Below, piece by piece: positions 4,016 through 31,787 of a stretch of DNA of 32,631 bases; positions within the stretch are counted from its first letter, which is position 1, and the number at the start of each line of letters is the position of its first letter. The notes under the pieces are model-generated. The model was not told the origin of the DNA, searched no databases, and saw nothing but the letters and a program-made list of their open reading frames with translations. A program made the translations under genes and the position numbers. The stretch is from a virus, in the IMG/VR virus record IMGVR_UViG_3300025326_001769, positions 1-32,631 of that record; one strand, written 5' to 3'.

Positions 4016-4018
4016 AAA

Positions 4019-7339: not shown

Positions 7340-7364
7340 TTAAAAATCTCCTAAGTTAAATTGT

Positions 7365-8492: not shown

Positions 8493-8551
8493 AAATAACC
8501 TCCTTAAAAAGTAGAAAATTGACATAAGTATAAAACTTATCACTATATATT

Positions 8552-8581: not shown

Positions 8582-8625
8582 TGATTTTTGGTGAGAAGAT
8601 AGGATTTAAATAAAATTAAAAAAGT

Positions 8626-10656
8626 TTAACCCAATTCTTTACATTTTCGTGCAACAATATATAAAAACATGCTATTTTCAATAGTTTCCATAGTAATTAT
8701 AGAAAATCCAACATCCTCCAATAAAACCTTCATTGCTTCCTGAGAATAAAGGCAGGAATGGTAGTCAAAAGATTCCTTCTGTTCCCCAAACATAAGCTTT
8801 ATAAAATCTATATAGGGCAGATTCCCTTCAGCATATCTTTTAACAATTTCTTGCATATTTAGTGTTTTTATAATTATTTCACCATTTAATGCCATCTGAT
8901 CATAAATCTTGACAAGAAATTCACCCACAGCATTAAATCCTATATGTTCCAATAAATCTTCAATTAATATAAGATATGGTTTTGTTGTCTCTGTGGTCAA
9001 ATTAATATTAAAAATATCTTTATCTTTAAGACAAACATTTGTGAATCCTTCCCTTTGTAGTGGAAATACTGACATATTTATTTTTAATTTATATTTGTGT
9101 ATATATTCTAAAAATCTTGAATGGGTTTTCATTGCTTCTGGGTGTTCTCCTTGAAAAAGTTCAGTCCAACTTGGTTTACCAAATAAATGATTCCCATATT
9201 TTTCTTCCACACCTTTTGGATCTTTATCCCAAGCTAACCATACATTTTCATACCAATTTTGCTGTTGTTGAAACCCTGGAGTCCCAGTTTTAATATAATA
9301 ATCTATTTTATTCTTGATCTGTTGGTCTGTTCGGACATAAGAGTAATGATGGAAAAAAATATCTTTAGCGAATACTGAAGGAATATCTTCTCCATTTTCC
9401 AAAATGGGGAGTGTGTGTATATTATACTTGATTTTACCACAAATATTCAAGTTTATCAATGACTTACGCCCTGTAAATTGTTCCCAAACTCCTTTTGAGA
9501 CATGCCCAAGGTCTTTCCAATAATCAAGAAAATTAAAACAAAAAGAAGATACTTGTGGATTGGCAAAAATTAAGTGTTCCACCTTTCTAAGATTTTCCCC
9601 AGACCAAACCTCGTCCGAATCTATGATCCAGGCATAATCAAATCCATCAAGCATTTGACAGTATACATTTCTCTGATCTGTCTTGCTTTTGAATTCCTTA
9701 CTAATAACTATTATCTTTTTCTGTGGATCCTCCATTTTTTCTAATATTTCTAAAGTTTTATCCTTGGAACAATTATCCACCACAACAATTTTAGAAACCA
9801 TTCCATATACACTTCTAATAGATGCTTCTATAAATTCTTCACTATCCTTTGTTATATAGCAAGCACAAATTGTGGGGGATTTAACAACTTTCCCTGTACG
9901 AATCCATTTTTGCTTAAATATCTCATGATTCCTGCCAAAGTGTTCGGCAGTTGGTCCACCCGTAAAAGACTTCGATTGATGGTGGTATAAAAGTGCTTCA
10001 GCACAACAAATATTAATGTAACCCAATTCTTTTGCTCTTAGACAAAAATCTGTATCTTCAAAGTATCCAGGGGAAAATACCCTGTCAAATCCTCCAAATT
10101 TATTCCATAAATCTTTTGCTACCATAAAACAAGCACCACTTATTACATCAAAAGTTTGACTTGTACAAACAGTGGGGTCATTCTTATCCTTTCCTATAGC
10201 AAAATGTATATAATTCATTTGCTTAGGTTCCCAAACCAACCCAAAATGCTGCACCGTATCGTTTGGATATAATAACTTTGCCCCGACTACACCAACATTT
10301 TTATTAAATTTGTATACATCAAGCATTTTCCTAAAACTTAAAGGGTCAATCAATTCGGTATCACTATTTAAAAACAAAATATATTTTGCCACACTTCTTT
10401 TTGCCCCCAAATGGCAGGATTCTATAAAACCTTTGCTTTGTTGATGATGTACAATATTTAATTGTGGGAATTGTTCAAGATAATGAACTGTCTCTGCATT
10501 ACTTCCATCATTTACAATTATGATTTCGTATAAGCAATCTTGAATCTTTTGTAAAGATGCTAAACATTTATCTACATAAGGAAGAGCATCTTTTATGGGA
10601 ATTATTATGGATAATTCAGGTCTTGTTAATATTTTTTTCTTAATTTTGAATGACAT
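8626..10656 (-). CDS. Fused double GT2 glycosyltransferase with methyltransferase-like tail
   Basis: A 676-residue protein with three parts. Residues 13-240 are a family 2 glycosyltransferase (ELSIIIPIKDALPYVDKC, IIIVNDGS, LFLNSDTEL near 95-102, GYFEDTDFCLRAKELGY), like rhamnosyltransferases. Residues about 260-480 are a second GT2-like domain (CACYITKDSEEFIEASIRSV, VVVDNCSKDKT, AWIIDSDEVW). Residues about 560-676 look like the end of a SAM methyltransferase (LIEDLLEHIG, VLLEDVGFSII), but the usual glycine-rich SAM loop is missing, so that part may be inactive. The start has AAAGGAG, and the gene follows the GT9-like gene by one base. Likely role: adding and possibly extending sugars on a virion protein or surface glycan. 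The acceptor is unknown. It is the last gene of the sugar island. Confidence 0.85.
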   Translation of the reverse strand: MSFKIKKKILTRPELSIIIPIKDALPYVDKCLASLQKIQDCLYEIIIVNDGSNAETVHYLEQFPQLNIVHHQQSKGFIESCHLGAKRSVAKYILFLNSDTELIDPLSFRKMLDVYKFNKNVGVVGAKLLYPNDTVQHFGLVWEPKQMNYIHFAIGKDKNDPTVCTSQTFDVISGACFMVAKDLWNKFGGFDRVFSPGYFEDTDFCLRAKELGYINICCAEALLYHHQSKSFTGGPTAEHFGRNHEIFKQKWIRTGKVVKSPTICACYITKDSEEFIEASIRSVYGMVSKIVVVDNCSKDKTLEILEKMEDPQKKIIVISKEFKSKTDQRNVYCQMLDGFDYAWIIDSDEVWSGENLRKVEHLIFANPQVSSFCFNFLDYWKDLGHVSKGVWEQFTGRKSLINLNICGKIKYNIHTLPILENGEDIPSVFAKDIFFHHYSYVRTDQQIKNKIDYYIKTGTPGFQQQQNWYENVWLAWDKDPKGVEEKYGNHLFGKPSWTELFQGEHPEAMKTHSRFLEYIHKYKLKINMSVFPLQREGFTNVCLKDKDIFNINLTTETTKPYLILIEDLLEHIGFNAVGEFLVKIYDQMALNGEIIIKTLNMQEIVKRYAEGNLPYIDFIKLMFGEQKESFDYHSCLYSQEAMKVLLEDVGFSIITMETIENSMFLYIVARKCKELG

Positions 10657-10657
10657 T

Positions 10658-11560
10658 TTATAAAATCTCCTTTATAACATTATAAATATCTTCAGCTTTT
10701 ATTGCTTGCATACAAGGTGCAGGATTTATATTTCTTGGGCAATAGTAAGAATGTGACCAACAAGGCCATTGATTACAAGTAGATTTTCCACCATAAATAG
10801 GATGTATAGTATTATAATATTTCAAACGACATTTTGGATCTGACCCCCCGAAAATAGCAACTGTTGGAATCTTAAAAAATCCTGAAAAGTGCAATAGACC
10901 CGAATCTGGTGTTATCATAGCATCAACATTTTTAATAATTGCTACAACTTCTCTAATATCATAACTCCCACACAAGTTTATGACCCCATCATCTTTAAAA
11001 CCGAAAGGATGGTTATCCATAACAACCACTGTGCAATTATTATATCTTAGCATTCTAATAAGCCTAATAATTTCGTCTGGCACAGGATTCCTAACCCAAG
11101 AAGAGGCTTTTAACTGTACCCCCACAATTGGTCTTGAATATTTTGATAAAAAACTTGTTGCCCACTTTTGTTCCTCTGGCAAAACTTCATATACAAATGA
11201 TTTGTCTCGTATCAGGAAACCTGCCCAAATTTCTAAGGAATCCAGTGCGTCCATTTCTCTACTATATGAACTAACAACGTGTGGGCAAACCCTATCTGAG
11301 ATGTAGTAATCTACTCCATTTGTATATGGGGGATTCCCAACACGATCCACGAGTTTATCTATGTAAGAATTTGTTTTATAAAGAGGTTTCCAATAGTTTC
11401 CAATCGAAGAAACCCATAATTTTAAATCAGGATTTCTTCTCTTTAACTCTCTGTGCAGACAAGTCCTCCAAAGTGCATCCCCGATCCCCATATAGTGATC
11501 CAATAAAAGGACTTTGCCAGATTGATCAATAGAACCATCAAATTGTTTTAAAAGATTCAC
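10658..11560 (-). CDS. Heptosyltransferase-like (GT9) glycosyltransferase
   Basis: A 300-residue GT-B type enzyme of family 9 (ADP-heptose LPS heptosyltransferase family). The N-terminus has the expected start KVLLLDHYMGIGDALWRTCL. The C-terminal domain shows PIVGVQLKASSWVRNP, and the donor-binding segment VDAMITPDSGLLHFSGFFKIPTVAIFGGSDP in split form (TPDSGLLH then VAIFGGSDP), the hallmark of the family. It ends in a cysteine-rich part (CNQWPCW, YYCPRN, APCMQAI) also common in this family in phages and bacteria. It starts at GTG (11560) after AAGGAA. Donor sugar is not deducible: many family members outside LPS clusters do not use heptose. It overlaps no gene but is packed tightly with its neighbours. 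Confidence 0.85.
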   Translation of the reverse strand: MNLLKQFDGSIDQSGKVLLLDHYMGIGDALWRTCLHRELKRRNPDLKLWVSSIGNYWKPLYKTNSYIDKLVDRVGNPPYTNGVDYYISDRVCPHVVSSYSREMDALDSLEIWAGFLIRDKSFVYEVLPEEQKWATSFLSKYSRPIVGVQLKASSWVRNPVPDEIIRLIRMLRYNNCTVVVMDNHPFGFKDDGVINLCGSYDIREVVAIIKNVDAMITPDSGLLHFSGFFKIPTVAIFGGSDPKCRLKYYNTIHPIYGGKSTCNQWPCWSHSYYCPRNINPAPCMQAIKAEDIYNVIKEIL

Positions 11561-11578
11561 TATATAATTTCCTTATAA

Positions 11579-12859
11579 TTATTCCATGCTGATTGGGTCT
11601 TCATAAAGATTTTTTAATTCCTCTTCTGTATTAAGATCCCCTTCTAAAAAATTCTTAATTGCTTCAAAAGTTAAAACACAGCTATTCCCCTGAACCCCAT
11701 TGAAAAAGTCTTTTACTATATTTGCTCTACCTTCCATATTTTTATTAGGATTCTTTAGATTTTCCTCTATATAGTTAAACAACTCCCCATACTTCTTGCT
11801 TCGGTTCACACACTTATAACTATCAAGCACATTCCAGTACCAATTCATTACATTTTTACGAACCTCATAAGGATGTGACCAATACATATTTTCTAATACA
11901 ACAGGCTTGTTAAATATTAAAGCCTCAAGTGCTGAAGTAGAAGGAATACTACAACAAATATCAGAATTAAATAGTAAATTACCTAAAGCCCATGTATCGA
12001 AATTATCTAAATGATATGAATGCCCCTCATATTCTTTAACACCGTAAGCAGTGCCTTTGTTAAGGCTTGGATCTGCTATAATTTTAACATCTACTGTTGG
12101 ATATTTCTTAATAATTAAATTATATATCCAACTATCCCCAGTTCTAATAGGGTGTGCTTTTATGATTACTTGAGCACCGAATTCTTTAGCCGTCTCCATA
12201 AAATTGTCAAACGTATCAAATACCCATTGGGATATTTCCCCATTTGGAAGATATGTAAATATGGGTTTCTTTATATCAAAACCTATTTCTAAACAAAATT
12301 TTTCCCTATTATAATATTCAGATTTTCTATAAATATCAAAATGACAAGGACCTGTTATAACTACATTTGGTAATGGTTCTTCCACGCTTAGTCCATGTAA
12401 AGACCCAATTGGATGCCAAATCATTACATCTCTTTTCCTTGAATACATTCTTTTAAAAAAGTCCCCCCAACATAGATATAAATCTGGAATAACTGGCATT
12501 GGGTGGAAAATGGAATCTATGAAGTCTTGTATAATTATTATTGGTATTCCTAACGCTCTGCCCATTTTCTGAAAATTAACATCGAAAGTGTGTGCTGGAA
12601 CATCTGAATTACCACAAGCCACTATTGCTGAAATATTGCCTCTTTCCATAATATCTTTAATATTTTTAGCATCCCCTTTTTGCATTAAATCTGAAAAAAA
12701 AGTTATATCTTTAAATTCTTCTCTCCACTGTGGGGACAACTCAGCAGGGGAAGCAACAATAATATCATATTCTTGTTTCAATAATTCAAATAATTCCGTC
12801 CTAAGAAGTATCCTAGAAGTCCTCTCCATCGCTGTTGTGATTAAAATTTTCTTTTTCAT
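11579..12859 (-). CDS. GT-B fold glycosyltransferase-like protein (CDP-glycerol transferase/epimerase-like)
   Basis: A 426-residue protein that starts KKKILITTAMERTSRILLRTELFELL and contains IIVASPAELSPQW. The C-terminal half has PIFTYLPNGE, AQVIIKAHPIRTGDSW and DICCSIPSTSALEALIFNKPVVL, which is the donor-side pattern of CDP-glycerol glycerophosphotransferases and UDP-GlcNAc 2-epimerase-like GT-B proteins. The S-T-S-A-L-E-A segment corresponds to the nucleotide-sugar-binding loop. The last 40 residues are acidic and probably a flexible tail. Its start overlaps the preceding small gene by four bases (ATGA), so translation is coupled. Whether it transfers a sugar, a glycerol phosphate or a nonulosonate cannot be told; the NeuB-like gene just upstream makes a nonulosonate donor a fair guess. 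Confidence 0.65.
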   Translation of the reverse strand: MKKKILITTAMERTSRILLRTELFELLKQEYDIIVASPAELSPQWREEFKDITFFSDLMQKGDAKNIKDIMERGNISAIVACGNSDVPAHTFDVNFQKMGRALGIPIIIIQDFIDSIFHPMPVIPDLYLCWGDFFKRMYSRKRDVMIWHPIGSLHGLSVEEPLPNVVITGPCHFDIYRKSEYYNREKFCLEIGFDIKKPIFTYLPNGEISQWVFDTFDNFMETAKEFGAQVIIKAHPIRTGDSWIYNLIIKKYPTVDVKIIADPSLNKGTAYGVKEYEGHSYHLDNFDTWALGNLLFNSDICCSIPSTSALEALIFNKPVVLENMYWSHPYEVRKNVMNWYWNVLDSYKCVNRSKKYGELFNYIEENLKNPNKNMEGRANIVKDFFNGVQGNSCVLTFEAIKNFLEGDLNTEEELKNLYEDPISME

Positions 12860-13017
12860 TTATCCCCTTTTTTATGCCCCAAAGTTTGTTTAACAGATAG
12901 CCACAAGTCTTGCAGTATTTCAGCCACTTGTTTATTACTATTCCATTTCATAATAGATTCTTCCATATCTTTATATTTTTCATAGACTTCTTTTATTTTT
13001 GATAGATCAGTTTTCAT
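12856..13017 (-). CDS. Small helical protein, 53 residues
   Basis: An ATG at 13017 overlaps the NeuB-like stop by one base (TAATG), and the TGA at 12858-12856 overlaps the next start by four (ATGA). The product starts MKTDLSKIKEVYEKYKDMEE and continues with QVAEILQDLWLSVKQTLG: amphipathic, charged, probably helical, with no signal peptide. Overlaps on both sides make it very likely real. Function not recognised; a small partner of the adjacent enzymes is possible. Confidence 0.7.
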   Translation of the reverse strand: MKTDLSKIKEVYEKYKDMEESIMKWNSNKQVAEILQDLWLSVKQTLGHKKGDK

Positions 13018-13859
13018 TAAATATCCCTCAATTTTTTTATAATTGGTATTTCTGATTCTTGTATTTCTTTACAAGGTTCACCCATACCTTCTTCTATAGC
13101 TTTTATATATTTTACAAGATGCCTAATTCCTTCTGGCTCAAGTGAAGAACTTTGATCTGAACCATACATTTTTCTATCAAGTGTAATATGTACTTCAATC
13201 ATTTTTGCTCCATGAGAAACAGCTAATGAAGGGAATAAAATTCCTCCGGTATGGTCACTCCAACCGATATCACAATAAGGTGTTTTAAAATAATAGGATA
13301 AGAATTTTATCTGATTAAGATTAATATCCTTTAATGGACAAGGATAACTACTAGTACAACCAAGCAAAAATCTTAATTTATCTGTAATTGTAGAAACTGC
13401 TTTACCCACCATTTTCAAATCGCACATTCCGGTGGACATTATTAAATCAAATCCTGTTTCTACACATTTTTTTAAAAAAACTTCATCTGTAACCTTTGCT
13501 GATGGAATCTTTAAATAAGACATGTTTGGAAAATTAGATTTAAGAAAAGCTATTGATTGTAAATCCCAAGGACTTGCAAACCAAGATACATTTCCTTTTT
13601 CTTTACAATATTCATCAATTTCTTGATACTGTTCTAAAGATAGTTCGAGAGCTTCCTTCTGTGCTCTCTGGGTTTTTCCAAAAAGGCTTTCTCTAGGGCT
13701 ATCTAAAAATTCTTTTGTGTAACATAAAGTTATATCTCGTTTTTGGAACTTCACGTAGGGGATATTAAGATCAGAACAAGTATCTATAAGTTGTTTAATA
13801 ATACGCATGTCCCCGTTATGATTTATTCCAATCTCCCCAACCAATATCACAGAATTCAT
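13017..13859 (-). CDS. NeuB-like nonulosonic acid synthase lacking the SAF domain
   Basis: The 280-residue product matches the TIM-barrel part of N-acetylneuraminate/legionaminate/pseudaminate synthases, which join PEP to a six-carbon amino sugar to give a nine-carbon acid. Visible motifs: EIGINHNGD (9-17), YVKFQKR (35-41), WFASPWD (93-99), IPSAK (118-122), MSTGM (141-145), GCTSSYPCP (167-175), GWSDHTGG (199-206), EVHITLDR (222-229) and SLEPEG (239-244). The usual family has about 340 residues with a C-terminal SAF (antifreeze-like) domain that closes the neighbour's active site; here the protein stops before it. It starts ATG with GGGGGAA upstream and overlaps the gene before by four bases. 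Which acid it makes cannot be decided. Confidence 0.88.
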   Translation of the reverse strand: MNSVILVGEIGINHNGDMRIIKQLIDTCSDLNIPYVKFQKRDITLCYTKEFLDSPRESLFGKTQRAQKEALELSLEQYQEIDEYCKEKGNVSWFASPWDLQSIAFLKSNFPNMSYLKIPSAKVTDEVFLKKCVETGFDLIMSTGMCDLKMVGKAVSTITDKLRFLLGCTSSYPCPLKDINLNQIKFLSYYFKTPYCDIGWSDHTGGILFPSLAVSHGAKMIEVHITLDRKMYGSDQSSSLEPEGIRHLVKYIKAIEEGMGEPCKEIQESEIPIIKKLRDI

Positions 13860-14041
13860 TTTATAAATTCCCCCTTATTCAAATCCCATTTCTTTCTCTT
13901 CCATTCCTTTTTTAAATCTCTATAAATCCTAATTAACCCCTTCCAAATAATAGAACCATCTGTACAAAGATATTTTGTTGATTCCGTTTCACCTGATTTT
14001 TTAGCAAGATTTCTCAAACGTTTTGCTGTTTTTCCTCTCAT
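13856..14041 (-). CDS. Small basic protein, 61 residues
   Basis: Starts at ATG 14041 with a perfect AAGGAGG, and overlaps the NeuB-like start by four bases (ATGA). The sequence begins MRGKTAKRLRNLAKKSGE and ends with WKRKKWDLNKGEFIK: strongly basic, without membrane segments. Similar short basic proteins beginning MxGKxAKxLR are, from memory, common in phage genomes and have no known function. RNA or DNA binding is possible from the charge alone. Confidence 0.7.
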   Translation of the reverse strand: MRGKTAKRLRNLAKKSGETESTKYLCTDGSIIWKGLIRIYRDLKKEWKRKKWDLNKGEFIK

Positions 14042-14071
14042 ATATCCTCCTTATTTTTATCATGTTATCTT

Positions 14072-14626
14072 TTATATCCATGATTTATTTCTAATAATAA
14101 GTGAAATACTTGATGCATCCATATTAAATTCAATACCCAATTCCTTTTGTGTATAATTTCCTGTTTTGTGTAACTTTCTAATTTCATTAGCTTTTTCTAA
14201 AGTTAAAATGACTTGCCTTGTATTTCTTGTGTTCTCTTTTGCAGTTACCCAATTACAGTTAAATGGTCCATAATTACCATCATTATTTATTCTATTTATT
14301 TGTAAATTATCCTTATACCCATTATTTACTGCCCAATCCCTGAAATTAATAAATCCATTTAACTTGTTTGTCCATTCTGGGCATACTGTTATCCCTCTTC
14401 CACCATAGTCTTTGAACTGTTTAAAATTTGAATTGTAAACTCTTCTTTTTATCTCTCTCCAAATATTATACAATCTTGTTCCTTTACCCCCATGTCTATA
14501 ATTAGGATTATTATCTTTACTATGATGTCCTTGTATATAATTAGGAATACCACACCAATTATGATGTCTCTTTATTTCTATTTGACCACCACAACCACAT
14601 TTACATGTATGAGAATAATAATTCAT
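14072..14626 (-). CDS. HNH/AP2-like endonuclease with zinc-ribbon-like N-terminus and C-terminal HTH
   Basis: A 184-residue protein. Residues 1-40 repeat the cysteine module of the HNH gene at 3269-4015 (HTCKCGCGGQIEIK, GIPNYIQGH). The middle has LYNIWREIKRRVYN, GGRGITVCPEW, FRDWAVNNGY, INRINNDGNYGPFNCNWVT and KENTRNTR, the pattern of a phage endonuclease family related to HNH and AP2 domains. The last 45 residues form a helix-turn-helix-like end (EKANEIRKLH, TQKELGIEFNMDASSISLI). It starts five bases after the Gfo/Idh stop, interrupting the sugar operon without breaking a gene. Likely a homing endonuclease that moves by cutting copies without the insert. Confidence 0.85.
   Translation of the reverse strand: MNYYSHTCKCGCGGQIEIKRHHNWCGIPNYIQGHHSKDNNPNYRHGGKGTRLYNIWREIKRRVYNSNFKQFKDYGGRGITVCPEWTNKLNGFINFRDWAVNNGYKDNLQINRINNDGNYGPFNCNWVTAKENTRNTRQVILTLEKANEIRKLHKTGNYTQKELGIEFNMDASSISLIIRNKSWI
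14569..14611 (-). repeat. HNH N-terminal module, DNA match to 3952-3994
   Basis: Forty of 43 bases match 3952-3994 in the HNH gene at 3269-4015, although the catalytic halves of the two proteins belong to different families. This points to recent exchange of the module. Confidence 0.85.
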
Positions 14627-14631
14627 ATACT

Positions 14632-15606
14632 TTAATTATTTTGATGAAAATTTGATTTTATGTCATAAACGTACACAAGACTTTGTATTCCATCCTCTAA
14701 AGTTGCTAAATTTAACTGCTTTTTTCCATTTATCAAACCAATAAATGCTTCCATCTCACGATAAAACAAATCATTCCAATCATCAGAATTATTAGGCAAT
14801 AAATCAAAAGTTTCTATTTTTTCTATACCATAAACAGTAATTTTTCTTGTAGGAACTTTTAATAAAAAATCTAAATTTATTATTATAGGAATACATTTAT
14901 TATCTAATTCTAAAGAACTTAAAATAGTAATATTATCCTCAACCCCATACCCTAATCTATTGCTATAAATAGCTGATATAGGATACTGTTGCCCAAAAAT
15001 CCATGTTAAATAATCTATCTCATGGCTTTGGCTATTGAGAACCCCACCCCCCGCTTCATTTTTCAAAGCATAAAAGTCTTTTAAATCTCTACCATTTGTC
15101 CAATTATAAATACTATTACAATGATATGCTTCAATTCTATAAATATCCCCAAATTCATTATTATCCACCATATTTTTTAATTTTTGAAGATTTGGATGAA
15201 ATCGCATCTGAAATCCCATAGCACATTTCAAATTATTTTCTTCAACTTTATCTTGTAATCTATAAATTTGGGCTAAATTGTTAGATAAAGGTTTTTCTAT
15301 AAAAAGATTAAATCCCCTCTTTGCTATTTCTATTGCTATATCTATCCTTTCAGGAGGCAATGAACAAACAAAAGCAGCATCATATTTATTTAATAATGCT
15401 TCATCTAAATCATGATAAATTTCATTTATAGCATAAAAATCTAATAAATTATTGCTAAGTGTAATGTTCAAATTATTATCAAAAATTCTATATTGTTCTC
15501 TTTTAGAACAATAAATATCAATTACACAATCAGGCAATAAAGTTTTAAGATTCCTGAAATGCCTTTGTGCTATATTCCCCGCCCCACAAATTAAAAAGTT
15601 TTTCAT
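14632..15606 (-). CDS. Gfo/Idh/MocA family sugar oxidoreductase
   Basis: A 324-residue NAD(P)-dependent dehydrogenase. The N-terminal Rossmann loop reads FLICGAGNIAQRHFRNL (residues 4-20), and the family's EKP motif is present (NLFIEKPLSNN). The C-terminal domain has GFQMRFHPNL, EAGGGVLNSQSHEIDYLTWIFG, which includes the expected GG.L.D/E..H..D substrate-binding pattern. Members oxidise or reduce sugars and sugar nucleotides. In this operon it could act on a precursor or on the nonulosonate. It follows the CmcI-like gene after one base, with GAGGGTGAAATAAT before the ATG. Confidence 0.88.
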   Translation of the reverse strand: MKNFLICGAGNIAQRHFRNLKTLLPDCVIDIYCSKREQYRIFDNNLNITLSNNLLDFYAINEIYHDLDEALLNKYDAAFVCSLPPERIDIAIEIAKRGFNLFIEKPLSNNLAQIYRLQDKVEENNLKCAMGFQMRFHPNLQKLKNMVDNNEFGDIYRIEAYHCNSIYNWTNGRDLKDFYALKNEAGGGVLNSQSHEIDYLTWIFGQQYPISAIYSNRLGYGVEDNITILSSLELDNKCIPIIINLDFLLKVPTRKITVYGIEKIETFDLLPNNSDDWNDLFYREMEAFIGLINGKKQLNLATLEDGIQSLVYVYDIKSNFHQNN

Positions 15607-15607
15607 A

Positions 15608-16252
15608 TTATTTCACCCTCTTCAAAAATCCATACGGAGCAAAACTTAAATAAAATTTTTCACAATATCTATCAATTATAAAATTCTTGGAATTACCAAT
15701 AAATTCAAAAACAGCTTCTAATGGTTCTGCTGTATTTGTATCTTCCACAATAATGTAAGACCCTACAGAAACAAATTTACTATATATTTCAAGTTCTTTT
15801 AAAACATGACTTTTAGAATGGTCACTATCAAGAATAACCATAACTTTTTTATCTTTCACCTTTGGATTAATAAAATTTATTGTAGCTTCATCAACAGAAT
15901 TAGCCCAGAGATAAGAAATCCTTCCATGTTCAGGCAAGTTCCCCTTACCATTAGTATCTACTGTTATAATTTTCCCATTACCTATCATATCACATATTGA
16001 TGCAAAAAACAATGCAGAACCCCCAACTTTAGTCCCAGTTTCTATAATATAATCAGGTCTTATATTACAAATTAATTCTTGATATATCCAACAATCTAAT
16101 GGACATTTCTGAATAGGAACTCCCAACCAATTAGTGTTTTTCCAAGTTCCACCAATACAAGAGGATTCATAGTACAAGTCATGAAAATCTTGAATTATTT
16201 TATTAACTTTTTCAGTATCATTGTATTTTTTATAAAAAGTTTCTCTCTCCAT
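15608..16252 (-). CDS. CmcI-like / rhamnosyl O-methyltransferase family
   Basis: A 214-residue protein of the cephalosporin hydroxylase (CmcI) family, SAM-dependent O-methyltransferases with a Rossmann fold. Motifs in order: IRPDYIIETGTKVGGSALFFAS (split: IIETGT and GGSALFFAS), KIITVDTNGKGN, and VILDSDHSKSHVLKEL, then SYIIVEDT. These are the strongest marks of the family. Genes of this kind are often found in bacterial clusters for methylated sugars. It sits inside the tight block from CMP-sugar synthetase to NeuB-like, so it probably methylates a sugar hydroxyl on the same glycan. Confidence 0.85.
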   Translation of the reverse strand: MERETFYKKYNDTEKVNKIIQDFHDLYYESSCIGGTWKNTNWLGVPIQKCPLDCWIYQELICNIRPDYIIETGTKVGGSALFFASICDMIGNGKIITVDTNGKGNLPEHGRISYLWANSVDEATINFINPKVKDKKVMVILDSDHSKSHVLKELEIYSKFVSVGSYIIVEDTNTAEPLEAVFEFIGNSKNFIIDRYCEKFYLSFAPYGFLKRVK

Positions 16253-16254
16253 TT

Positions 16255-17541: not shown

Positions 17542-18299
17542 ATTATATCTCTACCTCCACAACAAATTAAATTACCCCCTTGCATATAATCTGAGTCTGA
17601 ACTACACAAAAATTTAATTGAACCATTATACTCATCAACTTTGGCAAGCCTGCCGATCGGTATTTTATCTTCCAAATTCTTTTTTAAAGTATCTGATTGC
17701 CCATTATACACACTTCCTGGGGATAAACAAACCGACTTGATCTGACTGCCATAATAACTGGCAATGTACTTAGTTAGATGTATAAGACCTGCTTTTGAGA
17801 CACTATAATCTGGTGGTTTAATATATCCATTTTCATATATTCTTTGATCACTTGTTATTATACCAAGGTCTGATATTATATTCACAATAGTTCCCTTAAA
17901 CCCTTCATTTGTATTTTTCAACATATATTTTATGCATTCTCTACTAAGCAAAAAAGCTCCTGTTAAATTAACAGATAATGTTTTATTCCATTTGTCTAAA
18001 CTATAGATTTCAAAACTGTTATTCACACCTTCTTTTGGAGGAAAATTTATAGCAGCACAATTAATAAGTATATCAATTCTGTCATAATTATCATATATTT
18101 GATAAATTGTTGTTTTAACATCCTCTTCATCTGTAATATCTATTGGGTAAAAACGTGATTTTTTAATCAATCTATTGATTTTTTTACTTGGCAAATCCAA
18201 AATAATTACTTCATTATTATCATCTTTGGATAATGTATATGCAAATTCACCCCCAAGTAAACCGTGACCACCAGCAACGAGTATTATTTTTTTATTCAT
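17538..18299 (-). CDS. Short-chain dehydrogenase/reductase (PtmA-like)
   Basis: A 253-residue SDR. The cofactor loop GGHGLLGG is at residues 10-17, NCAAI at 80-84, the catalytic serine in IISDLG (near 143) and YSVSK at 165-169. The C-terminus PSGSVY-like segment reads SPGSVYNGQ and GGRDI closes the protein. All catalytic residues are present. Pairing with a cytidylyltransferase resembles the ptmA-ptmB pair of Campylobacter flagellin glycosylation loci. Overlaps of four bases on both sides show translational coupling. Substrate not known; the name PtmA is by analogy of context and length. Confidence 0.87.
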   Translation of the reverse strand: MNKKIILVAGGHGLLGGEFAYTLSKDDNNEVIILDLPSKKINRLIKKSRFYPIDITDEEDVKTTIYQIYDNYDRIDILINCAAINFPPKEGVNNSFEIYSLDKWNKTLSVNLTGAFLLSRECIKYMLKNTNEGFKGTIVNIISDLGIITSDQRIYENGYIKPPDYSVSKAGLIHLTKYIASYYGSQIKSVCLSPGSVYNGQSDTLKKNLEDKIPIGRLAKVDEYNGSIKFLCSSDSDYMQGGNLICCGGRDII

Positions 18300-19048
18300 T
18301 TATAAATTCCAGTATTTTTAAAAATTTGAGCAGAATTTTCTTTCATTAAAGCTTCTGCATTAACAAAATCAATTTCATCATTTATACTTATACCATATAA
18401 TTTATCAATAATAACTGGTTTGCATGGATGAACAATTCTAACCCTATCCTTCAAAAATCTTTCTATTTTAATAGCCCAAGCTCCAACTTCTCTAAATAAA
18501 GTATCATCATCATTTTGCCTCATTTTCCTATCGGTATATAATGCTTCCCATTCAAACTTTGGTCTCGGACATTTCCAAAATTGCCCAATATCTTCATGAA
18601 TGATAAAAGAAGAATCCACACAATCATCTATTGAATCAAGCATAAGATCTAATGAGTCTATTGGTATTAAGGGGGAAGTCACTTCAACAATACCCAAAAT
18701 ACCTGTATATATTCCATACTTGTAGAGTTCGTTTAGGCATACTTCCTCAGTTGTTGTGAAACTTGTTGCTAAATCATCTATTCTTTTTGATAAAATTAAA
18801 GCCTCTTCATCAAATATTAATCCGAAGTGCAATTTTACCATTTCCAAGTACCAATCACTGTCAGAAGAAACTATTACTTTATTAATTTTTCCATTCTTAT
18901 ATAAGTGATATAATTTTTTGATGGTCCAATAATAAAGTGGTAGATCAAGGAAATTCTTAATATTTTTATTTTTTATTTCCTTTGAGCCTGATCTCATGGG
19001 TACAATAACTGTAGTATTGTATGTAGGTTTTTCTAAATTATTTTCCAC
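18296..19048 (-). CDS. Acylneuraminate cytidylyltransferase-like CMP-sugar synthetase
   Basis: A 250-residue member of the CMP-NeuAc synthetase family, which activates a nonulosonic acid with CTP. The nucleotide-binding motif is visible as VIVPMRSGSKEIKNKNI (residues 14-30), with the R-x-G-S-K core conserved. Further marks are KVIVSSDSDWYLE, SFTTTEEVCLNEL, EVTSPLIP and GISINDEIDFVNAEAL. It begins at GTG (19048), close after the small membrane protein gene. With the NeuB-like gene about 5 kb downstream in the same operon it supplies the last two steps of a nonulosonate donor pathway. Confidence 0.87.
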   Translation of the reverse strand: MENNLEKPTYNTTVIVPMRSGSKEIKNKNIKNFLDLPLYYWTIKKLYHLYKNGKINKVIVSSDSDWYLEMVKLHFGLIFDEEALILSKRIDDLATSFTTTEEVCLNELYKYGIYTGILGIVEVTSPLIPIDSLDLMLDSIDDCVDSSFIIHEDIGQFWKCPRPKFEWEALYTDRKMRQNDDDTLFREVGAWAIKIERFLKDRVRIVHPCKPVIIDKLYGISINDEIDFVNAEALMKENSAQIFKNTGIYK

Positions 19049-19050
19049 TT

Positions 19051-19433: not shown

Positions 19434-19453
19434 TTTAGTCTCCTTTTTATTAA

Positions 19454-20272
19454 TTATTTCTTCCTAAATTTATAGAGTATCTCCGCTCCATTTGCAGGTC
19501 CCGATATAAAAATCCTTTCGTTTGTTACAAATTTTAAGTATTCAAAAAAAGCAACTATTTTTGTATCCAAATCTGCTACTTTGCCCTCCATTGATAGTTT
19601 TAATCTTGTAACAAAATCTCTAACCATATCTAAATACATCCCCCTCTCTTGATCAAAGGTTAAAATTGTTTCACATTCAAAATCATAGCGATTAATGTAT
19701 TCAAATATTTTATCAGGCAAAATCATTTGTTTATCTGTTTTTGACATTTCTGCTCCAACAAACAATTCTAATGTTTTCCATATAACACCCCTAAGATTTA
19801 GAAAATTTGGATGTTCCAAAACAAAATAACCACCGGATTTTAAAAGTTTATTTGCGATATAAAACAAAATTTCAGGATTATCAAGGTGTTCGATAACGCC
19901 GATTGATGCAATGACATCAAAGTGTTCTTTATCAAGACAAAGATTTTCCTCAATTTCAAATTTTAGATCTTCAAATGATATATGTCTAAAATCAATCTTT
20001 CGCAACGCTGTTACTTCGTTTTCTTTTGCTTTATTTATTCCTACCCCAGAAAAGTCATAGCCGTGAAGCTCAGAAGGTTCTTCCAAAGTTGCATATCTTG
20101 TTAAGAAATTTCCTGTCCCGCACCCCAAATCCAAGATTTTTTTCCCATTTATATGATTTTTAATCATTTTATAAACTTCGGAATATATAAGGTCTAATGG
20201 AGATGTGAAAAATTCTTCCTTGTCATTTTCATAAACTTTATTATAAATTTCTCTCAATTCTTCATCTGGCAT
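19454..20272 (-). CDS. Class I SAM methyltransferase
   Basis: A 272-residue methyltransferase with a well-kept SAM loop KILDLGCGTGNFLTRY (near 45-60), the acidic strand ELHGYDFSGVGINKAK, FDVIASIGVIEHLDNPE and LLKSGGYFVLEHPN. The C-terminal third is helical and specific to this gene. The start lies inside the CgeB-like gene (overlap 19 bases), which indicates coupling. Likely acts on a sugar or a glycan-linked intermediate; the substrate cannot be told. Confidence 0.88.
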   Translation of the reverse strand: MPDEELREIYNKVYENDKEEFFTSPLDLIYSEVYKMIKNHINGKKILDLGCGTGNFLTRYATLEEPSELHGYDFSGVGINKAKENEVTALRKIDFRHISFEDLKFEIEENLCLDKEHFDVIASIGVIEHLDNPEILFYIANKLLKSGGYFVLEHPNFLNLRGVIWKTLELFVGAEMSKTDKQMILPDKIFEYINRYDFECETILTFDQERGMYLDMVRDFVTRLKLSMEGKVADLDTKIVAFFEYLKFVTNERIFISGPANGAEILYKFRKK

Positions 20273-21132
20273 ACATCCTCCACGATTTGTTGAACTCTAT
20301 GAGTATATAGATGTTTTCTTAAAACCAAGTCTTGTCCTCTTCCTGCAATTTCTTTTGCTTCGCTTCTGTGTATATTATAATAGTAACATAGATTTACCAA
20401 ATCGTCAAAGTCTTTATAATATCTAAGGTGTATCCCATCTTGAAATAATTCTGTTTCCCCTTCCACTTTATTTGTTAGAAGAAGTCCCCCCATACTCAAA
20501 ATTTCAAACACCCTCATTTGGTATCCTGAGTTTGTTATTCCTATGTTAAGATTGATTTTTGTGTCATTAACTGTTTTTACATAATCTATATGTGTATAAG
20601 AATACTGGATGGGGATTCCCTTATCCAATAAATAGTTTATCATATTGATCCTATTCACATTCAGATTGCCAACGAACCCAACATCTATTAATTTATTTGA
20701 TACTTGCAAATCTTTATGAACTTCTTTATCCGCCGCTAATGGAAGGAAAAAAGAATTCTTATTGAATTGTTTATAAAAAGGAAGCTCTGCTTCTGTGAAG
20801 GAATATACAATATCAAATAGAGGGGATTTTGTCTGAATAATGAAAGCGGCTTCTTGGTTTGCTTGCACAGAGTCTTGCAAATATAGTATTTTACATATCC
20901 TGCAAGCAAAAACATCCTCTGGGTTTATGCGTTCCCCCTTAATTACCAACAAAAATTCTGCATCTGTAATATATCTTATTCTATTAGAAACTTCGTGTCT
21001 ATTCATAACTCTATAATCGGTTTCTATTACTTCATAACCCAAATCTTTAAATGCTTTTGAAATAAAATTTTCCATCCCATTAGGGTTCTTTGTATTAGCC
21101 CCAACCAAATGTATTCTTTTTTTATTTTCCAT
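20254..21132 (-). CDS. CgeB-like GT-B glycosyltransferase
   Basis: A protein of 292 residues from the ATG at 21132; a TTG at 21147 in frame would add five residues but lies deep in the preceding gene. It begins MENKKRIHLVGANTKN. The C-terminal donor domain has VGFVGNLNVNRINMINYLL, INLNIGITNSGYQMRVFEIL, GGLLLTNKVEGETELFQDG and HLRYYKDFDDL, which is the pattern of the CgeB/Glyco_trans_1_2 family, common in spore, flagellar and phage glycosylation loci. Overlaps by 11 bases with the sulfotransferase-like gene. Donor and acceptor unknown. Confidence 0.85.
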   Translation of the reverse strand: MENKKRIHLVGANTKNPNGMENFISKAFKDLGYEVIETDYRVMNRHEVSNRIRYITDAEFLLVIKGERINPEDVFACRICKILYLQDSVQANQEAAFIIQTKSPLFDIVYSFTEAELPFYKQFNKNSFFLPLAADKEVHKDLQVSNKLIDVGFVGNLNVNRINMINYLLDKGIPIQYSYTHIDYVKTVNDTKINLNIGITNSGYQMRVFEILSMGGLLLTNKVEGETELFQDGIHLRYYKDFDDLVNLCYYYNIHRSEAKEIAGRGQDLVLRKHLYTHRVQQIVEDVCQMKN

Positions 21133-21727
21133 AGTGTACCTTTTCAAAATCTACAATAGAATGCCAAATTTGTCTTCCTCTATCCTTATCTATATGAATG
21201 CCCAAAGAACTTATACTATGATAAACCTCATCATAATTCTCAAGAAAATAGGGAAAATACAAAATATGGTGTTTTATTCTAAGATTTATACACGTATTTA
21301 TAAAAACTTTAAATTTTTCATCCAATTCAGCAGGTGAGAAATTTGTGTAATATCCTAAATTACCATGACTTTTCTTTGATTCTAATGCGTGTAATGGTTC
21401 CCTATAGGTTATTAAAACAGATATATTAGGTTTTACCACAGTCCAAATTTTTAAAATATTTGGATTAAAAAGTAAACGAGGGTGCTTCATAACAATTTTA
21501 TCAATTTTAGCAATTTCTTTTTCCAAAAATAAAATTAGTTCTTCTGAAAAAGGGTTATTTTGAAAAGTAGTTAAAACGGCTTGTACCTGTTCGTCTTCAA
21601 AACCTGCATTTATGGAATCGTTCCAAGAACCTCCTGTATTATAACCTAAGTCATGCAAAAATTTGGTGAGTAGTGAAGTCCCTGATCTAAAAAATCCCGT
21701 GATAAAAAGATGTTTTTGATAATCCAT
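21122..21727 (-). CDS. Sulfotransferase-like P-loop protein
   Basis: A 201-residue protein whose start MDYQKHLFITGFFRSGTSLL contains the sulfotransferase PAPS-binding loop pattern GxxRSGTSxL (residues 11-20), followed by LTKFLHDLGY. A second mark is MKHPRLLFNP and then VLITYREPLHALESKKS, the site of the 3'-phosphate contacts in the family (R followed by P within a helix start). At about 200 residues it is shorter than most (250-300). If active it would sulfate a sugar using host PAPS. It might instead be a related kinase-type P-loop enzyme. Confidence 0.7.
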   Translation of the reverse strand: MDYQKHLFITGFFRSGTSLLTKFLHDLGYNTGGSWNDSINAGFEDEQVQAVLTTFQNNPFSEELILFLEKEIAKIDKIVMKHPRLLFNPNILKIWTVVKPNISVLITYREPLHALESKKSHGNLGYYTNFSPAELDEKFKVFINTCINLRIKHHILYFPYFLENYDEVYHSISSLGIHIDKDRGRQIWHSIVDFEKVHYGK

Positions 21728-21736
21728 ATTTATCCT

Positions 21737-22408
21737 TTATAAATAAACACTCACAATCTCAGAATAATAATTAGTCCAATATTCCCTATTATGTACATTT
21801 GTTTTACAATGACAATTACCACACAAAGTTATTAAATTTTCTGGGTTATTGTTTTTCTTGTCATAATCTATATGGTGAATACATAAATTTTCTGTGTTCA
21901 TACATCCAGGTGTTTGACATATATTTAAATCTCTATTTTTAATGAATTGTTTAAATTCTTTATTAAATTCTTTAGGATATATTTCAAAAGAAGAGCCTCC
22001 ATTCCAATTTGGGGATAATTCCCGTTTCTTCCCATACATAGGGTTATCTTTTCCTATCCATTTACCCTTTCTATATTTAGACATTTTTTGTCTTGTTTCT
22101 TCTAACACTTCTCTCCCCATAGCTTTATTTCTTATTTTTAATCTTGTTTCTTCTGTAACTTTTTTACCAAAAGAGGGGCTTTTTTCACCCTTTTTTCCAA
22201 ATTGTGGATTGTTCTTTCCCTTTTTAGATTCAGATACTTTCTTATTTCTTTCCTTAGAATATTGCTGACAACCACAGGATTTACATCTTTTTCCACTACT
22301 TAATTGTCTTTCAACTTCTTGTAAACAAAAAGAACATAAAAATATGCCATAATAAATCCATCTACCATTCTTATTTTTCTCTTTTCTTGTTTTTCTTATT
22401 AATTTCAT
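21737..22408 (-). CDS. HNH homing endonuclease with NUMOD3 repeats (type B N-terminus)
   Basis: A 223-residue protein from the ATG at 22408, one base after the stop of the upstream gene; a longer start at 22462 lies within that gene and is unlikely, since the other type B copy begins at the matching residue (MELIRN against MKLIRK). Residues 1-55 carry the type B module (CSFCLQEVERQL, CKSCGCQQY). NUMOD3-type repeats follow (FGKKGEKSPSFGKKVTEETR, LEETRQKMSKYRKGKW). The catalytic end has [28 protein letters not shown] and GNCHCKTN with all expected cysteines and histidines. No good ribosome site is visible. Confidence 0.88.
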   Translation of the reverse strand: MKLIRKTRKEKNKNGRWIYYGIFLCSFCLQEVERQLSSGKRCKSCGCQQYSKERNKKVSESKKGKNNPQFGKKGEKSPSFGKKVTEETRLKIRNKAMGREVLEETRQKMSKYRKGKWIGKDNPMYGKKRELSPNWNGGSSFEIYPKEFNKEFKQFIKNRDLNICQTPGCMNTENLCIHHIDYDKKNNNPENLITLCGNCHCKTNVHNREYWTNYYSEIVSVYL

Positions 22409-22409
22409 A

Positions 22410-23642
22410 TTATAATTTTTGTAAAAAACAATCAAAAGACCATGAATTTTGAATTTTATCAAAACTTAATAATTTAAATTGTGTTTGTAATTTAGCTAAA
22501 ACCATGTTCCTAAAATCTTCTGGCAAAAAGTCATTTATGTGGGTTGGGTCTGCTTGTTCTGTCCCGATGTTTGGAATATATCTTTTATGAGGAACAATAA
22601 GTAACAATACCCCTCCAACTCTTAATTTCTTAAACCAATCTTCTACTGCTTGAACAGGGTCTTTAATATGTTCGATAAGATGAGAAGCACAAATAAAATC
22701 AAGTGTTTCATCTCTAAAAGGTAATTCCTTTGTCCCATCCCAAACTAATTCTGGTGTCTTCCCACCATTTCTGTCTTGATCCACCCCAACTGCAAAATTC
22801 ACCTTTTTTCGATTATTACAACCTAAATCCAGGCCGTTCAACATATTTTCTTGTGTCTTTAAAAAATTATTTATAAATTCTGTCTCAGACCTCCATAAAT
22901 GACTACCAGATGTTTGTAAAATAATATTGAATTTCCCCTCAACCCAAAGGTCGGGTCTCCGTTGGAGTGCCCGATTAAATATTAAATTCTTCCAATACTG
23001 AGGGTCATTTCCTTCTCTTACCCATTTCTGAGTAAATTGCTCAGAATGCAAACGATTCTCTACCAAAACTTCTGATATATGCTTTAGTTGAACAGAATGC
23101 CCCACAAGTCTAATAATAAAATCCGTATCTGCGGAATATTTAAGCGTTGTGTCCCATCCCCCAATTTCTAATGTTTTATCCCTTCTGTAGCATTGAAGAT
23201 GCCCAATATTTTGAAGATCCTTTATACTTCCAGATTTCCATTCAGGATATTTTCTAACCTGATTTGTTCCTAAAATTTTAAGATCTGAATATATAAATCC
23301 AATCTTTCTATTTACTTCCTTATCAATAAAATTTGAAAGTTTTTGCAAAGCATCTGGCATCAAAACATCATCGTGGTCTAATCTAATTAACCATTCACCT
23401 TTAGAATAATAAACTCCTATGTTATGACTCTTCTGTAGGCCAAGATTTTGCTCATTCTTCACGTATATTAAGTCTATTTCAGGTCTATCCGGCAATAAAA
23501 CTTTTGAGGTAGATGGGGTATCTGAATCATCTATAATTACTACTTGAAATGGTTCTTTATATATTTGATTATAACAAGACTCCACCGCTTCTGACAAAAA
23601 CTGGGGTTGATTATATGCAGTAATTATAATTGAGAATTTCAT
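22410..23642 (-). CDS. GT2 glycosyltransferase fused to SAM methyltransferase
   Basis: A 410-residue bifunctional protein. Residues 1-260 are a family 2 glycosyltransferase (KFSIIITAYNQPQFL, VVIIDDSD, LIRLDHDDVLMPDAL with the metal-binding DDV, and SADTDFIIRL). Residues about 275-410 are a type 11 methyltransferase (GLDLGCNNRKKVNFAVGVDQ, LDFICASHLIEHIKDP, LRVGGVLLLIVPHK). Both active regions look intact, so the enzyme could add a sugar and then methylate it. Translation starts at ATG next to the stop of the upstream gene with weak AGGAAG signal. Donor and acceptor unknown. Confidence 0.88.
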   Translation of the reverse strand: MKFSIIITAYNQPQFLSEAVESCYNQIYKEPFQVVIIDDSDTPSTSKVLLPDRPEIDLIYVKNEQNLGLQKSHNIGVYYSKGEWLIRLDHDDVLMPDALQKLSNFIDKEVNRKIGFIYSDLKILGTNQVRKYPEWKSGSIKDLQNIGHLQCYRRDKTLEIGGWDTTLKYSADTDFIIRLVGHSVQLKHISEVLVENRLHSEQFTQKWVREGNDPQYWKNLIFNRALQRRPDLWVEGKFNIILQTSGSHLWRSETEFINNFLKTQENMLNGLDLGCNNRKKVNFAVGVDQDRNGGKTPELVWDGTKELPFRDETLDFICASHLIEHIKDPVQAVEDWFKKLRVGGVLLLIVPHKRYIPNIGTEQADPTHINDFLPEDFRNMVLAKLQTQFKLLSFDKIQNSWSFDCFLQKL

Positions 23643-23990
23643 TTAATTTTCTTCCTCATCATCTTCCAAATCAACTTCTACTGTAGGGTCTTCCCCATTT
23701 TCCAATTTTTCTTGACAACATGAGCAAGTCGTCTCATATCTATCACCAAATTTATTCTCAAATTCTTCATAAAAATCATATACATTGGATAAAAATCCAA
23801 TTAAAAATCTATAATCTCTATCTGTTTCCCCAAACTGCCACAAAAGATGTAAGGCATGGTAAATTGAATCTTTTGTTAATTCTATATCATCTTCCTTTTC
23901 ATTCAAGGAAAGCCTATTAACTGCGTACTCTATAAAGTCGTCTTCAAAATTTTCTAAAGGTCTTAACTTTTTTTCCTCTTTTTTTGTCAT
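23643..23990 (-). CDS. Acidic protein with YxEFENKFGxRY motif, unknown function
   Basis: A 115-residue protein. The start is basic (MTKKEEKKLRPLEN), the middle helical (DSIYHALHLLWQFGETDRDY), then FYEEFENKFGDRYETTC and CSCCQEKL, with an acidic end. The C-S-C-C group may bind a metal. The block EFENKFGxRY is shared with the next gene upstream. It abuts the GT2-methyltransferase gene. No family recognised; the pair is described as related proteins. Confidence 0.7.
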   Translation of the reverse strand: MTKKEEKKLRPLENFEDDFIEYAVNRLSLNEKEDDIELTKDSIYHALHLLWQFGETDRDYRFLIGFLSNVYDFYEEFENKFGDRYETTCSCCQEKLENGEDPTVEVDLEDDEEEN

Positions 23991-23999
23991 TTTATACCT

Positions 24000-24485
24000 C
24001 TATTTGTTTTTATACCTACTCCCAAATTTGTTTTCAAATTCACTATAAAGATTATCAATTTCTATTATTTTACTAATAGCTTCTTTAGCATTGCTATTGG
24101 CTAAAATGGAAAGAGTTTCATCAACCCAATCCTTCTTTTCTTCTATGCTATGATTATTCCAATCATTTGAAGGTGTCCAATCATTTTCTGGGTCTGTTAA
24201 TCTACTTGAAATATATGTTAATACTACATCATTATAAGTTTCCTCTGGTTTAATTTGAAATTTCTTATGTTCAAATTCCCACCACAAATAATCAATTTCA
24301 AGGGTTCTTCTAAGAACACAATTAACACAATATTGGCATAAAAGTTGCAATATAGTTGCAATATATATTGCTGGTTTTCTTGATTCCTCCTTAGAAGGGT
24401 CAGGAACAAATCCCAATCTATGCATAATATATGTATGACAATCCAACCCAAAATCTTCTTTTTTCCTTTTTATTATTTTATTCAT
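24000..24485 (-). CDS. Protein with C-terminal YxEFENKFGxRY motif, unknown function
   Basis: A 161-residue protein, MNKIIKRKKEDFGLDCHTYI at the start, with a cysteine-rich helical stretch (LLCQYCVNCVLRR) and a C-terminus LYSEFENKFGSRYKNK that matches the neighbour's FYEEFENKFGDRYET. Both also share a helical segment ahead of the motif. They may be a duplicated pair or two subunits of one complex. No catalytic motif found. Start chosen at the first ATG, 17 bases after the GT gene stop; no clear ribosome site. Confidence 0.7.
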   Translation of the reverse strand: MNKIIKRKKEDFGLDCHTYIMHRLGFVPDPSKEESRKPAIYIATILQLLCQYCVNCVLRRTLEIDYLWWEFEHKKFQIKPEETYNDVVLTYISSRLTDPENDWTPSNDWNNHSIEEKKDWVDETLSILANSNAKEAISKIIEIDNLYSEFENKFGSRYKNK

Positions 24486-24502
24486 AGTTTAATATTATCA
24501 TA

Positions 24503-25573
24503 TTATACAATTATGTCAATTAAATGTTTAGAATTCTCAAACCACCCAAGGTTAGCCTCAGCATACTTCCTACTTGCTAATTGCATTTTATATAATTCCT
24601 CTTTGTTTTCAGATAGTTCTATCATTTTCTCAGCAAAATCTACAATGTCTACCTCACAAGATTTAACGAAAATTCCAGGAATTTCTTTCTTCTCTTTAAC
24701 TTTTATTAAATAACCATTTTCCCCCTCAATTATCCTTTCATTTAGAGGAGCACAATCAGTTGCTATTACAGGTCTGCCCAATGCTAAAGATTCCATCTGC
24801 GGAAGGCAATTACCCTCCCATCGGCTTGGCAATACCACCAAATCTGCCTCTTGGTAATATTTAATAAGTTCCTGAGTAGAGACAGTGGAACTTGATTTTA
24901 TAACATTTTGTGACCTCACTGATTGATTCTCCTGCTGTGTATGAATGTGCAGTAAAGTTTTGTCTCTTGGGCAAATCCAACTAAAAGCATCTACTACAGC
25001 TTTTTCATTCTTACGATCATTTACCCCACCAAAACCTGCTGGGAAAAAAATTAAGGGTTTATCTTTTTTGATAGGTTCTTGGAAGGAATATTGGTCTAAA
25101 TCTATCCCCCAAGGAACAAAAACAGCATTATCTAAAAGATGATCGTTTTTTAAGAGATTATATGAGGATTTGGTAGGACAAACAATATGTGTAAACTGTT
25201 GATAATATTGAAGTTCTGCCGGATTTATGAATTCCCATACGACATAATTTATACTTTTGACCCCTAATTTGTTGCAAATTGGGACAAGATTTTTGGTATG
25301 TTGTTCCTCTACAAAAATTACTATATCAAGTTTATTTGCAATAATCCATTGTTCAAAATCCCCTTCTTCTATCTTATAATTTGGATAAAGCAAGATATTT
25401 GGGTGGAAGTAATCGTCCCAGTATTTTATTTTCTTTCTGTTGTCAGCTATGGACATTCTGGCAAGAATAGATATATTGGCATTTGGTATATGCCACTGAA
25501 TAGCTTGTTTAATCTGTTGACAAATTACGCCAGAACCACGATCAAAATATACAGACACAATTCCAATATTCAT
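24503..25573 (-). CDS. Glycosyltransferase family 4-type (GT-B)
   Basis: A 356-residue GT-B enzyme that opens the sugar island. It begins IGIVSVYFDRGSGVICQQI, contains a nucleotide-sugar domain with LIFFPAGFGGVNDRKNEKAV, LLHIHTQQENQSV, and the donor-binding region ELIKYYQEADLVVLPSRWEGNCLPQ, then ALGRPVIATDCAPLNERI, characteristic of glycosyl transferase group 1. The E in PSRWEG is the expected catalytic-side glutamate. No ribosome site precedes its ATG, but a good TATAAT lies six bases upstream, so it may be read from a leaderless transcript. Acceptor unknown. Confidence 0.88.
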   Translation of the reverse strand: MNIGIVSVYFDRGSGVICQQIKQAIQWHIPNANISILARMSIADNRKKIKYWDDYFHPNILLYPNYKIEEGDFEQWIIANKLDIVIFVEEQHTKNLVPICNKLGVKSINYVVWEFINPAELQYYQQFTHIVCPTKSSYNLLKNDHLLDNAVFVPWGIDLDQYSFQEPIKKDKPLIFFPAGFGGVNDRKNEKAVVDAFSWICPRDKTLLHIHTQQENQSVRSQNVIKSSSTVSTQELIKYYQEADLVVLPSRWEGNCLPQMESLALGRPVIATDCAPLNERIIEGENGYLIKVKEKKEIPGIFVKSCEVDIVDFAEKMIELSENKEELYKMQLASRKYAEANLGWFENSKHLIDIIV

Positions 25574-31768: not shown

Positions 31769-31787
31769 GAAAATCACCCCCTTTCTA

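Follow-up and report, generated by a model that had tools for sequence, protein, structure and literature searches.

Phages are known to glycosylate their own virions. In mycobacteriophages (Che8 and relatives) glycans are attached to the capsid and to the C-termini of tail-tube subunits, the known acceptors of that system (Freeman 2023, cited in PMC12619734), and the glycosyltransferases (GTs) are phage encoded, as they are in the locus described here. In the accessible portions of PMC12619734 and PMC11256854 that system comprises few GT genes, located near the 3' end of the genome in the Cheoctovirus example, and no nonulosonate gene set or methyltransferase-rich tail-operon island is described. 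The locus analyzed here is instead a 17-kb island of sugar genes (positions 8626 to 25573) inside the tail operon of IMG/VR virus record IMGVR_UViG_3300025326_001769, a linear viral record of 32.6 kb with a GC content of approximately 33% (the window, positions 1 to 32,631), probably from groundwater to judge by the metagenome numbers of its sister contigs. With somewhat better than even confidence, we favor reading this island as a pathway, encoded by the phage and held as a single block within its structural operon, that glycosylates virion proteins in the cytoplasm. Virion glycosylation itself is already known in phages; the new parts are the size of the island, its combined nonulosonate and methyltransferase chemistry, and a recurrent site between tail terminator and tail tube, none of which was found described in the limited, open-access literature searched. 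A first-pass annotation of this DNA had drawn the comparison with actinobacterial phages, and these do provide a precedent for virion glycosylation, but nothing indicates an actinobacterial host.

The flagellin nonulosonate islands of the Maf/GmaR type, found in Campylobacter and Aeromonas, have a NeuB/NeuA module, methyltransferases, and soluble GTs in common with the phage island. Their target is a tubular polymer that self-assembles, and it is modified in the cytoplasm, where CMP-nonulosonate is transferred to the subunit before assembly (PMC4065374), and we propose this as a parallel for the phage tail. The 2 systems are linked by a GmaR-like domain in the window and by a Maf-family domain in a second phage group. 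The phage island differs in that phage head and tail genes flank it in place of flagellin, its nonulosonate pathway is incomplete, and the window has no Maf homolog. The gtr clusters by which temperate phages convert O-antigen also pair phage-encoded sugar transfer with the GT2 family, but their gtrA flippase and membrane-anchored GtrB and Gtr(type) proteins are absent from the island. Marine virus AG-345-L05, a Kyanoviridae cyanophage, has consecutive SDR, cytidylyltransferase-like, aminotransferase, and NeuB genes, accompanied by other sugar genes, on a 149-kb record, but no tail-tube gene was recognized alongside, and no TIM-barrel, Gfo, or CmcI homolog was detected. That run (L032, positions 8752 to 15813) also includes a GT gene and lies a few kilobases from a psbA-like gene.

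The island sits between the tail terminator and the tail tube, as the first-pass annotation had placed it. Every structural or sugar gene identified lies on the minus strand, and the order of transcription is capsid assembly proteins, major capsid protein, adaptor-like proteins, Neck1, terminator, island, tail tube, chaperone, tape measure, distal tail, and fiber. The island holds about 20 open reading frames (ORFs), every one on the minus strand. The spacing between them is mostly -26 to 30 bp, so the earlier description of co-directional, tightly overlapped genes holds apart from 3 wider gaps of 157, 181, and 181 bp. The flanking genes and the GT genes are as follows.

7365 to 8444, minus strand: tail tube, left flank (PF18906 Phage_tube_2, E 1.5e-21; phrog_290, E 5e-21)
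8626 to 10656, minus strand: double GT2 glycosyltransferase, adjacent to the tube (PF00535, E 1.8e-33; PF13704, E 2.9e-9)
10658 to 11560, minus strand: GT9 (heptosyltransferase-type) glycosyltransferase (PF01075, E 4.8e-10)
20254 to 21147, minus strand: glycosyltransferase, Glyco_trans_1_2 (PF13524, E 2.1e-22)
22410 to 23642, minus strand: GT2 glycosyltransferase fused to a methyltransferase (PF00535, E 6e-24; PF08241, E 9.3e-8)
24503 to 25573, minus strand: GT1-family glycosyltransferase, adjacent to the terminator (PF00534, E 1.2e-16; phrog_2170, E 2.9e-33)
25622 to 26077, minus strand: predicted tail terminator, right flank (AlphaFold2 [AF2] model and Foldseek)

The terminator matched nothing by sequence in Pfam, PHROGs, or tblastn and is assigned by its predicted fold. 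Its single-sequence AF2 model (pLDDT, the model's confidence score, of 55) has a helix-strand-strand-helix-strand-strand order, and the best Foldseek matches in the PDB include the stopper-terminator complex of the siphophage R4C, T5 p142, and lambda gpU. The whole island and both junctions are spanned by near-identical contigs from other assemblies (98.5-100% identity), with L002 covering window positions 1 to 11007, G002 (L132 plus L005) covering 10897 to 32631, and L003, L004, L006, L007, L008, and L133 also overlapping. A chimeric assembly or bacterial contamination is ruled out because these contigs traverse the entire island.

Pfam supports 5 GT genes with 6 GT domains, the genes starting at 24503 (GT1), 22410 (GT2 with methyltransferase), 20254 (Glyco_trans_1_2), 10658 (GT9), and 8626 (2 GT2 domains). 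It also supports 4 methyltransferase domains, at the C-terminus of 22410 and at 19454, 16255, and 15608, so the earlier count of at least 5 GTs and 4 methyltransferase regions stands. The C-terminal part of the tube-adjacent protein is methyltransferase-like by eye only. Its second GT domain resembles GmaR, a Listeria flagellin glycosyltransferase, in a profile search (PDB 22ao, E 8.6e-9), and this match supports the favored interpretation.

The pairing of this GT2-GT2 gene with the tube is conserved. It lies directly upstream of the tube gene in 2 diverged relatives, L024 and L028 (tube 78 and 74% identical, respectively; tape measure 49% in both), at 73% identity in L028 and as 2 parts of 68 and 60% in L024, where an HNH gene splits it. 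The gene thus abuts the tube in 3 lineages, with GT identities of 68-73%, close to the 74-78% of the tube. L024 also retains the GT9 gene, at 65% identity, upstream of its GT2 gene; both contigs stop within GT genes, and any upstream half of the island, with or without a nonulosonate block, would lie beyond their ends. The 2 GT genes with enough variation to be tested are under purifying selection similar to that on the tube (pN/pS, the ratio of nonsynonymous to synonymous polymorphism, of 0.19 for GT2-GT2, 0.18 for GT9, and 0.17 for the tube). No bacterial homolog of the GT2-GT2 gene was confirmed among the genome contigs searched.

The same features bear on a rather unlikely alternative, in which the target is the host. 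The island would then alter its surface polysaccharide while the phage infects or is lysogenic, for superinfection exclusion or antigen conversion, relying on lipid carriers and flippases of the host, and its location in the operon would be incidental. PHROGs does list phage GTs under "moron / host takeover", some of them GtrB-like, and NeuB, NeuA, SDR, and TIM-barrel modules occur in bacterial sugar loci. Arguing the other way is the conserved adjacency of GT gene and tube, together with the expected expression with the structural genes, which would be late. A promoter scan gave no more matches than in shuffled sequence. The island sugar proteins also had no Pfam match to a flippase (GtrA or Wzx), a polymerase (Wzy), a lipid-carrier transferase, or a membrane GT of the gtr type, and no transmembrane helices were predicted in any island sugar enzyme. 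Cytoplasmic virion glycosylation is favored on these grounds, that is, soluble enzymes without export components, a site in the structural operon, and conserved adjacency to the tube.

The sugar that this pathway would use is suggested by a second set of genes, in which both a nonulosonate synthase and a CMP-nonulosonate synthetase are encoded, listed here together with the remaining methyltransferases.

13017 to 13859, minus strand: NeuB-type nonulosonate synthase without SAF domain (PF03102, E 4e-58; PDB 6ncs, E 5.7e-30)
14632 to 15606, minus strand: Gfo/Idh/MocA sugar dehydrogenase (PF01408, E 1.5e-13)
15608 to 16252, minus strand: CmcI / rhamnosyl O-methyltransferase family (PF04989, E 5.8e-47)
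16255 to 16710, minus strand: methyltransferase (PF08241, E 4e-10)
16711 to 17541, minus strand: xylose-isomerase-like TIM barrel (PF01261, E 5.7e-14)
17538 to 18299, minus strand: SDR oxidoreductase (PF13561, E 8.2e-33)
18296 to 19048, minus strand: CMP-sugar synthetase, NeuA/PseF type (PF02348 CTP_transf_3, E 1.8e-12; TIGR03584, E 1.9e-13, under cut-off)
19454 to 20272, minus strand: methyltransferase (PF13847, E 3.6e-19)

The NeuB protein has 280 amino acids and lacks a SAF domain, as does its best PDB relative, 6ncs (290 amino acids). Searches of bacteria returned 80 homologous loci at 39-48% identity, where the SDR has a homolog in 46 of the 80, the TIM barrel in 30, and Gfo in 14. SDR, cytidylyltransferase, NeuB, methyltransferase, and TIM-barrel families are abundant in a Pfam tally of 121 ORFs from 8 of these loci. 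By its gene content, the module is an ordinary bacterial-type nonulosonate cassette. Phage homologs of NeuB are few (one cyanophage, one 484-kb phage, and in addition one Moritella record), and none of the TIM barrel or CmcI was found in annotated phages. The GC content at third codon positions (GC3) of the block from 13017 to 19048 is below that of the remaining sugar genes (Mann-Whitney p=0.001), the block being AT-richer, which suggests that it was acquired separately, perhaps later.

The proposed pathway would begin with NeuB, the NeuA-like protein, and the Gfo, SDR, and TIM-barrel enzymes making or tailoring a CMP-activated nonulosonic (sialic-acid-like) sugar. Soluble GT1, GT2, and GT9 enzymes would then build a short glycan directly on the virion subunit, as in cytoplasmic flagellin glycosylation, the 4 methyltransferases would cap or modify the sugars, and the decorated subunits would assemble into virions. 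The phage would probably benefit from an altered virion surface, through adsorption, stability, or shielding; this benefit is inferred, as are the substrate, the product, and the timing. By adjacency only, the leading candidate acceptor is the tail tube, because the neighboring GT gene is conserved with it, and a fiber or head protein is also possible. One such candidate is the fiber-like protein at 3 to 2501 (minus strand), which is highly repetitive and rich in Asn, Thr, and Gly, with dozens of "NTFIG..AG..NTTG" repeats.

Several points weigh against this interpretation. The glycan and its acceptor are predictions from gene content, and the GT2 matches are at the family level, which is no proof of protein acceptors; soluble GTs could also use lipid-linked precursors of the host, by way of host flippases. 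The early steps of nonulosonate synthesis (dehydratase, aminotransferase, hydrolyzing epimerase) were not found among the Pfam matches of the window's sugar genes, the remaining genome being incomplete, so the phage would presumably draw early intermediates from its host. The nonulosonate gene set of the first-pass annotation is therefore present in its later steps and lacks these early ones. Position alone is weak evidence, since the GT genes of the mycobacteriophage precedent lie near the genome 3' end (PMC11256854). The earlier argument from position to virion modification nonetheless remains the better reading, given the conserved tube-adjacent GTs, the lack of encoded export proteins, and the PF01973 gene that a distant phage group carries at this junction.

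Comparison of this junction across phages gave a mixed outcome for the suggestion that terminator and tube adjoin where the island is absent. They adjoin directly, with no sugar genes between, in 5 distant phages, RDJL phi 1, Jenst, Marinitoga MPV1, Marinitoga MCV2, and Donnerlittchen, in several of which the 2 roles were assigned by gene order and size. BLASTP of the island-flanking terminator or tube found no similarity to RDJL or Jenst proteins, so homology with those 2 phages is judged from gene order and size. No close relative without the island was found, and the inference of an empty site rests on these distant phages.

In the second, distant phage group (major capsid protein approximately 31% identical), a PF01973 (MptE-like/Maf family) gene separates terminator from tube in L023 (E 1e-23) and L117, and further PF01973 matches occur in records L118, L119, and L022. 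In L117, 2 small unassigned ORFs (4412 to 4726 and 5699 to 5998) lie on either side of this gene. The PF01973 family includes the Maf flagellin glycosyltransferases as well as archaeal pterin enzymes. A tentative proposal, which we consider possible but doubtful, is that virion glycosylation in siphophages has a recurrent locus at the terminator-tube junction, where unrelated systems (the GT2-GT2/nonulosonate island and the Maf-like enzyme of L023 and L117) have settled to decorate the tube, such that tails would be nonulosonate-coated much like flagella. Sugar transfer by the phage PF01973 proteins is a lead. The pterin enzymes in the family count against it, as does the fact that the profile matched only archaea among the control genomes; the only PDB match to a presumed Maf protein, 5mu5 ("Uncharacterized protein"), is insignificant (E 0.08). 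No PF01973 homolog was found in annotated phages, and there is no match among the window's sugar proteins, the family being present only in the L023/L117 group.

The junction could also be a permissive insertion spot that gathers mixed cargo, sugar genes and homing endonucleases alike, without functional connection to the tube. HNH genes are indeed scattered within and around the island and in the relatives, the low GC3 of the nonulosonate block looks like separate acquisition, and the L117 junction holds its 2 small ORFs. We nevertheless regard this as improbable, with sugar-transfer-type genes rather than random cargo at the junction in both phage groups and the GT genes conserved and under purifying selection.

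The non-sugar content of the island is 2 HNH homing-endonuclease genes and several small unassigned ORFs. These, with the weaker assignments and the remaining structural genes, are listed here.

4019 to 6553, minus strand: tape measure protein (phrog_2854, E 3.9e-37)
11579 to 12859, minus strand: probable transferase, weak (NF046086 BFO_1060 glycosyltransferase, E 6.7e-11, under cut-off)
14072 to 14626, minus strand: HNH homing endonuclease (phrog_374, E 8.7e-38)
21122 to 21727, minus strand: unassigned, resembling a sulfotransferase only in a motif picked out by eye (weak PDB match, E 0.17)
21737 to 22462, minus strand: HNH/NUMOD3 homing endonuclease, true start probably near 22408 (PF07460, E 5e-15)
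26077 to 26586, minus strand: tail completion / Neck1 (phrog_26, E 2.8e-6)
28117 to 29052, minus strand: major capsid protein (phrog_1005, E 6e-57)

The protein at 11579 had no Pfam or PDB match and is GT-like at most. The sulfotransferase-like protein of the first-pass annotation (21122 to 21727) could not be confirmed, with no match in family searches and an unusable AF2 model (pLDDT 43). Beside the GT genes, adjoining small genes at 23643 to 23990 and 24000 to 24485 (minus strand) have a common "EFENKFG.RY" motif and no family match. No anti-phage defense genes were found among the 7 island proteins tested. The tail-assembly chaperone (6554 to 7339, minus strand) has a classic -1 slippery site, AAAAAAC, directly before its stop. 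In the window and in both L024 and L028, the -1 frame stays open nearly as far as the start of the tape measure gene.

Related HNH genes, some with NUMOD3, are found at 3269 to 4015, 14072 to 14626, 21737 to 22462, and 31788 to 32531 of the window, at 1928 to 2713 of L024, where the gene interrupts GT2-GT2, and at 2654 to 3304 of L028, directly after the tube. Contig L004 (window 7419 to 8444) has approximately 60 base differences, all within the tube gene's 3' end, and this tract, which adjoins an end matching an HNH gene (window 14543 to 14637), looks like co-conversion from homing. Differences between strains are grouped in short tracts (in L002, for example, 52 in the 250 bp at 9500 to 9750), as if co-occurring relatives had recombined. 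The protein at 31100 to 31777 (minus strand) has repeats of 11 protein letters, and base differences in L007 cluster at 31500 to 31784.

Upstream, contig G004 lengthens the sequence by at least 21 kb, in which terminase, portal, and head-assembly genes were recognized by eye, bringing the known genome to at least approximately 56 kb, still incomplete. Phage GTs acting on hypermodified DNA are known (reference 46 in PMC12619734), and the island GTs might accordingly glycosylate phage DNA to protect it against restriction. We consider this very improbable, as the gene families (GT9, NeuB/NeuA, CmcI) suit cell-surface or protein glycans. No hydroxymethylase was recognized by ORF reading in the window and the extra 20 kb of L012, the genome being incomplete and the L012 region not family-scanned; 2 genes there, read by eye, resemble ordinary DNA methyltransferases.

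Virion glycosylation is documented in few phage systems, and here up to 17 kb of a genome of at least approximately 56 kb is given over to sugar genes. The second phage group, with its different sugar-transfer-type gene (PF01973) at this junction, makes the idea testable in any cultured phage so arranged. If it is true, tail glycosylation would be a broader strategy of phages, predictable from gene order.

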